Shown: positions 16,330-24,538 of the stretch, piece by piece | Numbering within the stretch: the stretch's first letter is position 1 | How the letters are laid out: the number at the start of each line of letters is the position of its first letter | Source: an uncultured Pelagibacteraceae bacterium | Lineage (GTDB): Bacteria > Pseudomonadota > Alphaproteobacteria > Pelagibacterales > Pelagibacteraceae | Assembly (NCBI GenBank): GCA_902570525.1 | Contig: CACFYN010000001.1 | Coordinates: forward strand, 1 to 64,000 | DNA: 64,000 nt | Direction: 5' to 3' | Notes under the pieces: generated by a model | The model's input: the letters and a program-made list of their open reading frames with translations, nothing else | What the model was told of the DNA's origin: nothing | Databases searched by the model: none | Translations under genes and position numbers: made by a program

Positions 16330-16461
16330 ATGGATATAAGTAATATTTTTTATCTAATAATGTTAATAACTCTAAGTATCAGTCTTTTTGTTTTTATTAG
16401 AAATCTTGATGTGATTAAAATTATTATTAGGTATTTCATTGAAAAATTACTTAGCAAGTAA
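16330..16461 (+). CDS. Possible 43-aa membrane peptide
   Basis: MDISNIFYLIMLITLSISLFVFIRNLDVIKIIIRYFIEKLLSK*; single hydrophobic segment; convergent overlap with hisG; not in the ORF track. Confidence 0.3.
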   Translation: MDISNIFYLIMLITLSISLFVFIRNLDVIKIIIRYFIEKLLSK

Positions 16462-17127
16462 TTTTATAATCTTTTTTACAATGGTGTTATTTTTGTAAGA
16501 TTTTGAAACAAATAAACTCGCTGATGTTTTAAGAACTGATTCTATTGGTTTAAGATTATTTTGTAACAGAGTTTGACCTGTTGAGCTCAAATCTGATATC
16601 AAGTCTGCTTTTCCAATTATATGTGAGTTTTCTGTTGCTCCTAATGATGAAATAAGTTCATATTGTGTGATGCCCTTCTCATTGAACCATTCTCTTGTTA
16701 AGTTTTTAAATTTAGTTGCAACCCTCATTAATCTTCTCTTTTTTTTAAAAAATTCAAATGAAATTTCTTCCAAATCAGCAGAGTTAACGCAATCAATCCA
16801 TTCAGCAGGAACAGCAATTACAAGATCGGATTTTCCCCAATCGTATTCTTTGACTAAAGATATTTTAGATTGAATTCCTGCATCACTTTCACGCCAAAGG
16901 TCTTTGCCACTTATTCCTACTGCACAAACTCCCTTTCCTAATGCTTCTATTATTTCTGTTGCATTCATATACATTACACGAACCATAGGGTATTTTTTTA
17001 TCGAGCCAATCAAAGATCTTTCGCTTGTTTTTGAAATACTTAAACCGCATTTCTTGAAAACTTTTTCTGCCTCATTTTTCAGTCTTCCTTTTGATAAAGT
17101 TGCGATGTTAATTATTTCATTTTTCAT
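16447..17127 (-). CDS. hisG: ATP phosphoribosyltransferase (short form)
   Basis: IATLSKGRL, GISGKDLWRE, DLISDLSSTGQTLLQN; next to hisZ. Confidence 0.92.
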   Translation of the reverse strand: MKNEIINIATLSKGRLKNEAEKVFKKCGLSISKTSERSLIGSIKKYPMVRVMYMNATEIIEALGKGVCAVGISGKDLWRESDAGIQSKISLVKEYDWGKSDLVIAVPAEWIDCVNSADLEEISFEFFKKKRRLMRVATKFKNLTREWFNEKGITQYELISSLGATENSHIIGKADLISDLSSTGQTLLQNNLKPIESVLKTSASLFVSKSYKNNTIVKKIIKLLAK

Positions 17128-18167
17128 AATAAACTTGTATTAATTGCAGCACCAACTGCAGTTGTATCCTTTTTGCTTCCAAGATTTTTTAATAATTTAT
17201 CGTAGCGACCGCCAGAAATTAGAATATTTTTTTTTCCTCTTTTAACTACAGAAATATTAAAAACCATTCCTGTGTAATACTCTACAGAACGATTTATATT
17301 CGGTGAAAATTTAACTTTTAAATTTTTTTTTAAATTAGAATTTATTGGAAAATAATTTTCGTAAATAAACAAATTCAATTTATTTTTTTTGAAAAATTTG
17401 TTAAGTATTCTTGGGGCATGTTCAATAGGACAAGATATTTTCAAAAAATCTTTAATAATTTTTACATTTTTTTTATCTGTTTCTAATCTGGGCTCTTTAT
17501 AATTTTTTAAATCAAAACGATCTAAAATATCCTTGAGCGATCTTCCTGAATAAATAGTATTAGGATTTAGTTTTCTTAACTTGTCTGCAATTTTTTTATC
17601 TTTTTCCACTATTACAGGATTTATATCAGTTCTACTTGAAAGCTTGTTTAGCAATTGATTAAAGTATTTTTCTCTACAAAAATGTCTTTTTATTCTTTCC
17701 TTCCAACGAACCTGTAAAGATAATCTATCTACCAATGCATTGAATATTTCAATATTACTCAAATTAATCTCCGCTTTTTTAAATTTTGATTTTTTGAATA
17801 TTTCTAAAGATGTGTTAACAATTTCATAGTCATCTTTAATTTTATTCTTTGAGGCAAATATTTCAAAACCTGTTTGATTTATAATAGGAGAATTTTCATT
17901 TTTATTTTGTTTTCTATAAGCTTCTCCTGAATAAAACCATTTTGTTTTACTTTTAATATTATTTTGAATAAATTTAACTACACTACTTACTGATAAGTCA
18001 GGAACTAATGACCATTCTTTGAGGTTTTGATCATAAAAAGAGAACAAAAATTGTCTAAAATTTCCACCAGATCTTTTAAGAATGTATTTTGACTCAATAA
18101 TATTATCTAGTTCAATATTCTTAAATCCTCTTGTTATAAGAATTTTAAATAAGTTTTTTGATTTCAT
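17124..18167 (-). CDS. hisZ: ATP phosphoribosyltransferase regulatory subunit
   Basis: Class II aaRS-like paralogue of HisS (YYTGMVFNISVV, ISGGRYDKLLKNLG) between hisS and hisG. Confidence 0.85.
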   Translation of the reverse strand: MKSKNLFKILITRGFKNIELDNIIESKYILKRSGGNFRQFLFSFYDQNLKEWSLVPDLSVSSVVKFIQNNIKSKTKWFYSGEAYRKQNKNENSPIINQTGFEIFASKNKIKDDYEIVNTSLEIFKKSKFKKAEINLSNIEIFNALVDRLSLQVRWKERIKRHFCREKYFNQLLNKLSSRTDINPVIVEKDKKIADKLRKLNPNTIYSGRSLKDILDRFDLKNYKEPRLETDKKNVKIIKDFLKISCPIEHAPRILNKFFKKNKLNLFIYENYFPINSNLKKNLKVKFSPNINRSVEYYTGMVFNISVVKRGKKNILISGGRYDKLLKNLGSKKDTTAVGAAINTSLL

Positions 18168-19533
18168 TTACTAGATTTTCTTTTGGAATGGACACTTGGT
18201 CATTCTCTTTTTTAGACTTTAATTTTTTTACTAAAATCTTATTTTCTTTTATTTCGTTTTCTCCAATTATGATTGCTAAATCTGTATTTTTGCGGTCGGC
18301 ATATTGGAGCTGTTTCTTTAGATTTTTATTTTGATCAAGATAAATTTCTGAATTAATTCCTTTTTCCCTTAATTGATTAATAATTCCATAACAATTTTGA
18401 ATATATTTTTTATCTAAAATACAAACTAGTACTGGTGATTGTGGATTTACCTTTATTTCATCAATTTGGTTAAGCGCATATAATAATCTGTCAATTCCGA
18501 TGCTCATACCGGTGCCTTTGTAATCAGCCCCTTTGAATCTTGAAATTAAACTATTATAACGCCCACCAGATCCACAACTACCACTGTTCACCTCTTTTCC
18601 TTTAGCATTTTTAATTTTAAAATTAAGATTTGTTTCAACCACGAAACTATTATAGTAAGACAATCCGCGAGTAATACATATATTTGTTTGAACTCTTTCT
18701 AAATTATTACCATAAGAAAGAACTTCATATAATTCCTCTAACTCTTTAATACCTGTAATACTTAATTCATTTTTTAAATTAGACTTTAATTCATTTAAAT
18801 TCTTTGAATTTATTGTAGTTTTAATTTGACTAACTTGATCATCAGATAATTTACATCCTGCAATGAATGCTCCCGAGCCATCTGTTCGACCATCTTTTAA
18901 TAATTTTTCTACACCCTCAAAACCCAGTCTATCTAATTTATCAATTGTCTTTAATACTTGATATTGCTTTTCCTCTGGTATTTTGATCTCTCTTAATAAT
19001 CCTTCAAGTATTTTTTTATTTGAAACATTTATTACAAACTGCTCCTTTTTAAGACCACACTCTAAAAATGAGTCTGCAATTAAATTACAAATTTCAGCAT
19101 CTGCCTGAGCTTCATTCACATCACCAATTATATCAGCATCAAATTGTGAAAAAGATCTAAATCGTGCTACATCGGCTTTCTCTTGTCTAAATACATCTCC
19201 ATAAGCATATCTTTTAAAAGGAAAAACTATATTCATGTAATTTTGAGCAATGAATCTAGAAAGTTGAGCACTCAAATCGTAGCGCAATGTAAGTGACTCT
19301 TTTTCATCATTAAAAGTAAAAACATCGCTCATTGGATTATTAGGATCTTCTGCCAGAAACGAGCCAATATTTTCACTTATTTCTAACGCTGGACTCTCTA
19401 AAGGTTGGTAGCCATAATTTTTGAAAATATTTTCAATTTTAGAAACAATTTTCTTTTTTGTTTCAAGTTCGGAACCGTACCTATCTTTAAACCCCTTAGG
19501 TAGATTTGGTATTAATTTTTTTTCTTTATCCAT
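18145..19533 (-). CDS. hisS: Histidyl-tRNA synthetase
   Basis: LIPNLPKGFKDRYG, RYDLSAQLSRFIAQN, FRQEKADVARFRSFSQFDADIIG, CGSGGRYNSL; start moved to ATG at 19533 because the ORF-track extension to 19578 runs into tRNA-His. Confidence 0.92.
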   Translation of the reverse strand: MDKEKKLIPNLPKGFKDRYGSELETKKKIVSKIENIFKNYGYQPLESPALEISENIGSFLAEDPNNPMSDVFTFNDEKESLTLRYDLSAQLSRFIAQNYMNIVFPFKRYAYGDVFRQEKADVARFRSFSQFDADIIGDVNEAQADAEICNLIADSFLECGLKKEQFVINVSNKKILEGLLREIKIPEEKQYQVLKTIDKLDRLGFEGVEKLLKDGRTDGSGAFIAGCKLSDDQVSQIKTTINSKNLNELKSNLKNELSITGIKELEELYEVLSYGNNLERVQTNICITRGLSYYNSFVVETNLNFKIKNAKGKEVNSGSCGSGGRYNSLISRFKGADYKGTGMSIGIDRLLYALNQIDEIKVNPQSPVLVCILDKKYIQNCYGIINQLREKGINSEIYLDQNKNLKKQLQYADRKNTDLAIIIGENEIKENKILVKKLKSKKENDQVSIPKENLVNEIKKLI

Positions 19534-19539
19534 TTGGCT

Positions 19540-19611
19540 TACTCCCGAGTTGAATTGAACAACTACCTTTTCTTCCACAGAGAAACGTGACTACCATTAC
19601 ACCACGGGAGC
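19540..19611 (-). tRNA. tRNA-His(GTG)
   Basis: Cloverleaf: GCTCCCG/CGGGAGT acceptor, TTTCT-CTGTGGA-AGAAA anticodon arm, AGTTG-TTCAATT-CAACT T arm, A73; no encoded CCA. Confidence 0.92.
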
Positions 19612-19665
19612 ATCTCCTTTCAATGTTTTATACTAATTGTGGTTAATTTTAAATTTATAATATGA

Positions 19666-19740
19666 TTAAACTGCTAGCGTGCAGCCAGCATGGAAATGAT
19701 GTCTGTGTGAATTTGCGATTTTGTAATTCTTCTTAACCAT
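19666..19740 (-). CDS. Candidate His-rich leader peptide, 24 aa
   Basis: ATG...TAA: MVKKNYKIANSHRHHFHAGCTLAV; 4 His codons within 6; upstream of and co-oriented with tRNA-His-hisS-hisZ-hisG; not in the ORF track. Confidence 0.5.
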   Translation of the reverse strand: MVKKNYKIANSHRHHFHAGCTLAV

Positions 19741-19748
19741 AAGTGAGT

Positions 19749-19776
19749 TAAATACCTGAAAAAATTTTAAATGCAA
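19749..19776 (-). promoter_or_regulatory. Candidate sigma70-type promoter for the leader ORF/tRNA-His/hisSZG unit
   Basis: TTGCAT (19771-19776) - 16 nt - TATTTA (19749-19754), which would place the TSS at or next to the leader ATG. Confidence 0.45.
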
Positions 19777-19780
19777 CAGT

Positions 19781-19828
19781 TAATTGTATAGGGATATGGA
19801 ATTTAACCACTCATCCCTATTACAATTA
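19781..19828. terminator. Long hairpin between cspA and the his leader, possible terminator
   Basis: TAATTGTA-TAGGGAT / ATCCCTA-(T)-TACAATTA: 15 bp stem with one bulge and 17 nt loop; T-rich tract follows on + strand, no clean U-tract on - strand. Confidence 0.45.
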
Positions 19829-24462: not shown

Positions 24463-24538
24463 GCCCCTTTAACTCAGGTAGCAGAGTATTTTCATGGTAA
24501 GAAAAAAGTCGTCCGTGCAAGTCGGGCAAGGGGCACCA
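24463..24538 (+). tRNA. tRNA-Thr(GGT), CCA encoded
   Basis: GCCCCTT/AAGGGGC acceptor, anticodon arm TTTTC-ATGGTAA-GAAAA, A73 + CCA. Confidence 0.9.

Follow-up and report, generated by a model that had tools for sequence, protein, structure and literature searches.

The locus examined here raises the question of whether a short, His-rich frame in front of tRNA-His and three histidine genes is a translated leader, and whether it could serve as a histidine sensor in SAR11 (Pelagibacterales), which outnumbers all other bacterial groups at the ocean surface and is thought to regulate little. In gammaproteobacteria, His leader peptides precede the his operon. The window (the whole 64,000-nucleotide stretch of DNA that was analysed) comes from an uncultured Pelagibacteraceae genome that is ~65% complete, and G012, a complete genome of the same genus with 1,343,202 bases, was used as a reference. 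An initial annotation had predicted, from the letters alone, an ATG-TAA frame, a run of His codons within it and an adjoining hairpin, and all three were found exactly where predicted, with tRNA-His, HisS, HisZ and HisG as the next genes, all on the leader's strand. The leader sits between cspE (CspE) upstream and tRNA-His, with hisD further upstream, and the locus reads as follows:

19749..19776, minus strand: leader promoter TTGCAT-N16-TATTTA, its -10 ending 8 nt before the ATG
19740..19666, minus strand: leader ORF, MVKKNYKIANSHRHHFHAGCTLAV*, an ATG-TAA frame that is probably leaderless
19690..19707, minus strand: His run CAC AGA CAT CAT TTC CAT (codons 12-17), the final CAT touching the hairpin
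19672..19690, minus strand: hairpin P1, TGCTGGC-TGCAC-GCTAGCA, a candidate pause or terminator hairpin whose arms covary between lineages
19625..19639, minus strand: conserved CAATTAGTATAAAAC, candidate -10 of a second promoter that would serve tRNA-His
19539..19612, minus strand: tRNA-His (GTG), CCA not encoded, the first gene behind the leader
18145..19533, minus strand: hisS, histidyl-tRNA synthetase (TIGR00442 above cut-off)
17124..18167, minus strand: hisZ, ATP phosphoribosyltransferase regulatory subunit (its best-scoring NCBIfam models are those for HisZ, with scores under the cut-offs)
16447..17127, minus strand: hisG, ATP phosphoribosyltransferase, short form (TIGR00070 above cut-off)

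In G012, the tRNA-His at the leader locus is the sole tRNA-His gene of the genome. An Rfam scan of the window returned only tRNAs at gathering scores and gave the leader no family match, and the covariance model RF00514 (His_leader) had no gathering-score match in the window; a tRNA-Thr (GGT) at 24463-24538 was matched by ARAGORN and lies below the Rfam tRNA gathering score. The tRNA-His at this locus is remarkably variable across SAR11 (L013-L055, L113-L192): the 97 recognised copies include 25 distinct sequences and fall into 8 clusters at 80% identity, and a further 20 were missed by ARAGORN, many of the form GCCTTGGTGGTGAAATAGTATCACG... with the T-loop AGCGTAA instead of TTCRA. The window copy ends (19534-19545) in ...CGGGAGTAAGCC without an encoded CCA, and most relatives encode ACCA. 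Behind cspE, the conserved inverted repeat TTGTAATAGGGAT...ATCCCTATACAA (19784-19825) is probably the cspE terminator, and an unrelated terminator of more classical form takes its place in other lineages.

Comparison across relatives indicates that the leader frame is real and selected as a translated peptide. The leaders of what we call the first family number 121, of which 117 are distinct, with 100 distinct peptides. From the ATG to the last His, their 2374 in-frame codons contain no stop, versus 258/2257 and 255/2257 (~11%) in the other two frames of the same 117 leaders, figures that are counts and not independent events since the leaders are related by descent; the other two frames are stop-free in just 2 and 6 of the 117. 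Over the six codons that precede the last His, 34% of positions are His, a ~22-fold excess over the 1.56% in G012 proteins, and since both CAT and CAC are used at the main His positions, and both TTT and TTC for the Phe before the last His, selection acts on the residue. First-family leaders are 18-35 residues long and second-family leaders 11, most leaders carry 2-4 His, and one large group has two His codons only. While the N-terminal part varies across SAR11, the frame, the His run, the promoter-to-ATG spacing and the hairpin are kept. A scan of G012 for a promoter followed by an ATG, a short ORF and an adjacent hairpin gave three occurrences, only the hisS one being His-rich, and this result, together with the stop-free frame, rules out a chance ORF. 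A genome-wide search for further leaderless leaders in G012 yielded none that was convincing, and the element is apparently the only one of such build in this complete genome. Two side observations concern the peptides themselves: the N-terminal parts in groups B and C (L022-L044, L114-L166) resemble 12-nt repeats, ACT nnn AGA nnn, that place an Arg every four residues and may have a slippage origin or a link to Arg, and CATCATCATTACCAAATCTAA (HHHYQI*) recurs in many genomes of the window's own genus (G222, G325, G453 and others), away from the examined leaders.

Upstream of the frame, the promoter that had been proposed is present on the minus strand at 19776..19749, and its counterparts recur among relatives. 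A TTG lies 33-38 nt upstream of the ATG in 118/121 leaders (the three exceptions are LD12-like or related), in the leaders read by eye 7-8 nt separate the end of a -10-like hexamer from the ATG, and in an ATG-anchored logo of the 117 distinct leaders the -35 and -10 columns stand out and no Shine-Dalgarno column is seen. Because of this promoter-to-ATG spacing, the leader mRNA is probably leaderless, starting at or next to the ATG. Between the leader and tRNA-His, nearly all relatives have TATAAA or GATAAA close in front of tRNA-His, with little variation in the distance; it is a candidate second promoter that could bypass an attenuator.

Evolutionarily, the element follows SAR11. Both the ATG frame and the His codons, whose absence from relatives the initial annotation had named as telling against it, are conserved across this group. 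A back-translated HxHHFHAG pattern matched 12/101 relatives, once each and always in front of tRNA-His, and its reversed control matched none; among same-genus genomes with a hisS match the element was upstream of hisS in 43/43, mostly with a different peptide, and the sister-genus leader at L085 reads MKNIVLNHTHHHTHAKHGLGN. A hisS profile search of named genomes, whose hits were nearly all single-cell genomes and MAGs of SAR11 (Pelagibacteraceae), some of them recorded as Candidatus Pelagibacter ubique, found the element at 77/80 hisS loci, which is every SAR11 locus among them, the other three being non-SAR11 records of which one is truncated. In a second family of the order, a His leader of other sequence (MFKFKHHHYHI*, MINKLIHHYHI*, MLIIKHHHSHI*) was present at all 17 loci read (L056-L072), with no tRNA between it and hisS. 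The upstream regions of hisS, the only his gene scanned, in 68 other alphaproteobacteria held no convincing His leader in a scan that requires 3 His in 6 codons and therefore misses 2-His leaders (it recovers 104/121 known leaders of the SAR11 family and 17/17 of the second family); its few non-SAR11 hits were GC-rich chance frames or lay >600 nt upstream. Placed on a tree of 71 HisS proteins, the four architecture groups require nine changes or more. One locus, L192, has a HRHHFHAGCTLAI leader, yet by its HisS it groups with loci whose leaders are mostly of the HARLLLS type, possibly through transfer or convergence.

The hairpin P1 is tied closely to the end of the His run. In the window, P1 opens with the third base of the last His codon, and in 119/121 leaders the 5' arm starts either in the final two bases of that codon or right after it (1 nt further on in the other two), a result to be read with the fact that our automatic leader definition included a His codon adjoining the hairpin; pairing hairpin and frame without the His requirement gave the same result in nearly all loci, with competing longer stems at L159 and L165. 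First-family stems are 6-8 bp with energies of about -6 to -11 kcal/mol, and their arms vary by lineage while staying complementary (GCTGGC/GCTAGC, ATAGCC/GGCTAT, ATAGCTG/CAGCTAT, ACGCAAGC/GCTTGCGT, GCTAGGC/GCTTAGC, GCTGAGC/GCTTAGC). Double changes are also seen within alignment A3, and in group C the outermost pair, to which the last His codon contributes its third base, occurs as U-A, C-G or U-G. The stop codon lies in the loop or reaches the 3' arm in 60 leaders and falls ~18-23 nt after the start of the stem in 57; at L054, the Cys codon TGC has become TGA inside the loop and the stem is kept. The second family has a 9-bp hairpin at the same position, with four doubly changed pairs. On its 3' side, all second-family leaders share an unchanging ACCCC, then Y and a stretch rich in T and A, and no pairing partner or role was found for this ACCCC; a pseudoknot between loop and U-tract in this family was dropped because by eye it fits only some sequence types.

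Whether P1 could end transcription was judged from what surrounds it. Behind P1, 69/117 leaders have at least 5 T in 8 nt, compared with 27% of shuffled spacers, and 40/117 have exactly four, the window among them; the earlier caveat of a weak U-tract thus holds for the window, where P1 is also short. In the second family, no recognisable terminator follows the hairpin, with ACCCC-Y in place of a direct U-tract. Consensus folds of three groups contain P1 and, in group B, a second helix that does not compete with it, and in none of them did a conserved alternative to P1 appear. A point 8 nt beyond the P1 stem is 25-30 nt away from the last His codon in 117/117 leaders, and with toeprints lying 15-16 nt from the first P-site base (PMC6851288), a ribosome whose A site holds that codon would lie over the 5' arm of P1. 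The His leader itself is well supported by these comparisons, and we infer the termination step: P1 may serve as a transcription terminator, and histidine supply would control termination there.

The second helix emerged from a pairing that had been suggested between TGGTTAA at the start of the ORF and TTAACCA downstream. Both halves are present (19739..19733 and 19646..19640), but the distal half is not conserved, and as it varies freely in relatives we rejected this helix in favour of a proximal one, a putative long-range helix newly described here as P0, in which the first 8-13 nt of the RNA pair with the bases just 3' of P1:

19732..19740, minus strand: P0 5' strand, AUGGUUAAG, which includes the start codon
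19662..19670, minus strand: P0 3' strand, UUUAAUCAU, right after P1 and overlapping the weak U-tract

In group B, P0 was called unprompted in the consensus fold, with 99.1% of cells paired, and 11/32 sequences carry a U-A to A-U double change that possibly reflects one or two events. In group A, the register fits 88% of cells, with one subgroup needing a shifted register and with weak covariation. A leader's own 5' and 3' partners pair ~2 kcal/mol better than swaps between groups do in A, B and D, and by less in C. The single-sequence fold of the window is mildly unusual (z -1.5) and prefers the distal TTAACCA when this is included, so the case for P0 rests on the comparison.

Functionally, the His-rich frame and its hairpin are very probably a histidine sensor that switches the genes on when histidine is short, and on balance we favour a ribosome-mediated attenuator of tRNA-His-hisS-hisZ-hisG as the way in which it acts. 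Judging from the promoter spacing, transcription would start at or next to the ATG and a 70S ribosome would load on the bare 5' end and translate a short peptide, whose lasting constraint, from the comparison, appears to be the His-rich stretch with its final His codon against P1. With charged tRNA-His plentiful, the ribosome would pass fast and leave at the stop in the P1 loop, in the 3' arm or beyond; P1 would then form, P0 would draw the U-rich stretch onto the 5' end, and RNA polymerase would stop. With charged tRNA-His scarce, the ribosome would wait, its A site occupied by the last His codon or one close by, and would cover the 5' arm of P1, and the polymerase would continue. In the completed RNA, P0 would bury the leaderless start codon, so that probably one pioneering ribosome reads it. 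The gene directly behind the leader encodes a tRNA, and maturation of this tRNA severs the leader from the hisS mRNA, which makes regulation of transcription likelier than regulation of hisS translation. A ribosome stalled at the first His (codon -5) leaves P1 free, so the masking model needs a polymerase waiting at P1; known attenuators depend on a synchronised race of ribosome and polymerase, and the same theory predicts low sensitivity for the large group with only two His codons (PMC1183508). The element would thus work like an attenuator, but an antiterminator was not found and the U-tract is weak; what had been anticipated as an analogous but differently built His sensor fits an element that is probably leaderless, has one hairpin and shows no antiterminator. 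Its most minimal form is a tentative suggestion, which we regard as doubtful in its full detail: an mRNA beginning at the start codon, a single hairpin acting as both pause and terminator, and P0 closing the start after one ribosome, with each transcript read exactly once.

Codon counting leaves one pattern unexplained, as Arg at position -4 (81/117 leaders) and Phe at -1 (91/117, as TTT and TTC) are about as conserved as most of the His, which suggests either codon-context tuning or a nascent-peptide effect. A nascent-peptide sensor, in which the conserved [TS]HRxxFH end of the peptide halts its own ribosome, perhaps together with free histidine or a different ligand, so that the arrested ribosome masks or frees P1, would make use of these residues, and a stalled ribosome that blocks a terminator has a precedent in tlrB; we nevertheless think it unlikely, as the peptide ends differ strongly (HRHHFHAGC, THRNCFHSQ, HAHFHAG, SHSHRVHARLLLSL, HHHYHI) and the only residue common to all first-family leaders is the His next to the hairpin. 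We give the same low weight to a read-out other than intrinsic termination, in which translation of the His codons matters but P1 and P0 act on Rho-dependent termination, on pausing or on the decay of leader RNA. The weak U-tract of many leaders and the ACCCC-Y behind the second-family hairpin would suit such a read-out, whereas the stretch behind P1 is T-richer than the rest of the spacer and the tight 25-30 nt geometry suits a polymerase halted just behind P1. Much less probable is an element without histidine sensing, in which P1 and P0 have no role beyond insulation or processing on the 5' side of tRNA-His and the frame is a coincidence: tRNA-His does lie directly downstream with a promoter-like -10 of its own, but the frame is free of stops and enriched in His, and the second family keeps its His leader with no tRNA before hisS. 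A functional metal-binding micropeptide (HRHHFHAGC), which the initial annotation offered as an alternative, matches the His/Cys-rich end in group A and is nonetheless the least credible, since some lineages retain only 2 His and the Cys is absent or lies after a stop, including one inside the hairpin loop, in many (L054 HAG; group C HAG; LD12-like HAEHALS).

If the attenuator reading is true, SAR11 senses its amino-acid supply by the position of a ribosome, through an attenuator kept across the order, and the synthetase, the first step of histidine synthesis and what is in a complete relative the sole tRNA-His gene would lie in one feedback loop. As an attenuator of very small size in which no antiterminator is visible, it would also lend itself to tests of how the coupled positions of ribosome and polymerase decide termination. 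We found no report of a leader peptide or attenuation in SAR11 in the open-access literature, and a survey of structured RNAs in Pelagibacter removed tRNA-containing intergenic regions from its candidate table (PMC2704228), which would explain why the leader was missed.

Compared with known systems, the SAR11 leader shares with the enterobacterial hisL (RF00514) a His-codon frame ahead of histidine genes and adjacent hairpins. It differs in apparently having no 5' UTR, in its one hairpin as opposed to the four competing segments of hisL, in preceding tRNA-His-hisS-hisZ-hisG, and in carrying mostly 2-4 His as opposed to seven in a row. In Bacillus, His leader peptides have been described ahead of hisZ/hisS paralogues, and in other Firmicutes ahead of his operons (PMC2965389, PMC9413887); these have the same gene family downstream, but belong to another phylum and were described with terminator and antiterminator hairpins. 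Among alphaproteobacteria, trpL (peTrpL) of Sinorhizobium meliloti is an attenuator with a leaderless ORF at the 5' end of its mRNA (PMC10117765), a likeness that in SAR11 is drawn from promoter spacing; trpL uses Trp codons and precedes another operon, and we claim no homology. In tlrB (yxjB) of Bacillus subtilis, no overlapping antiterminator was found, a stalled ribosome blocks the terminator, and the start of the leader can itself be shut by structure that forms further downstream (PMC6851288). Although tlrB senses tylosin via an RYR arrest motif and is not leaderless, it resembles the SAR11 leader in combining a terminator that lacks an overlapping antiterminator, which P1 would be, with a leader start that downstream structure can close, as P0 may do.
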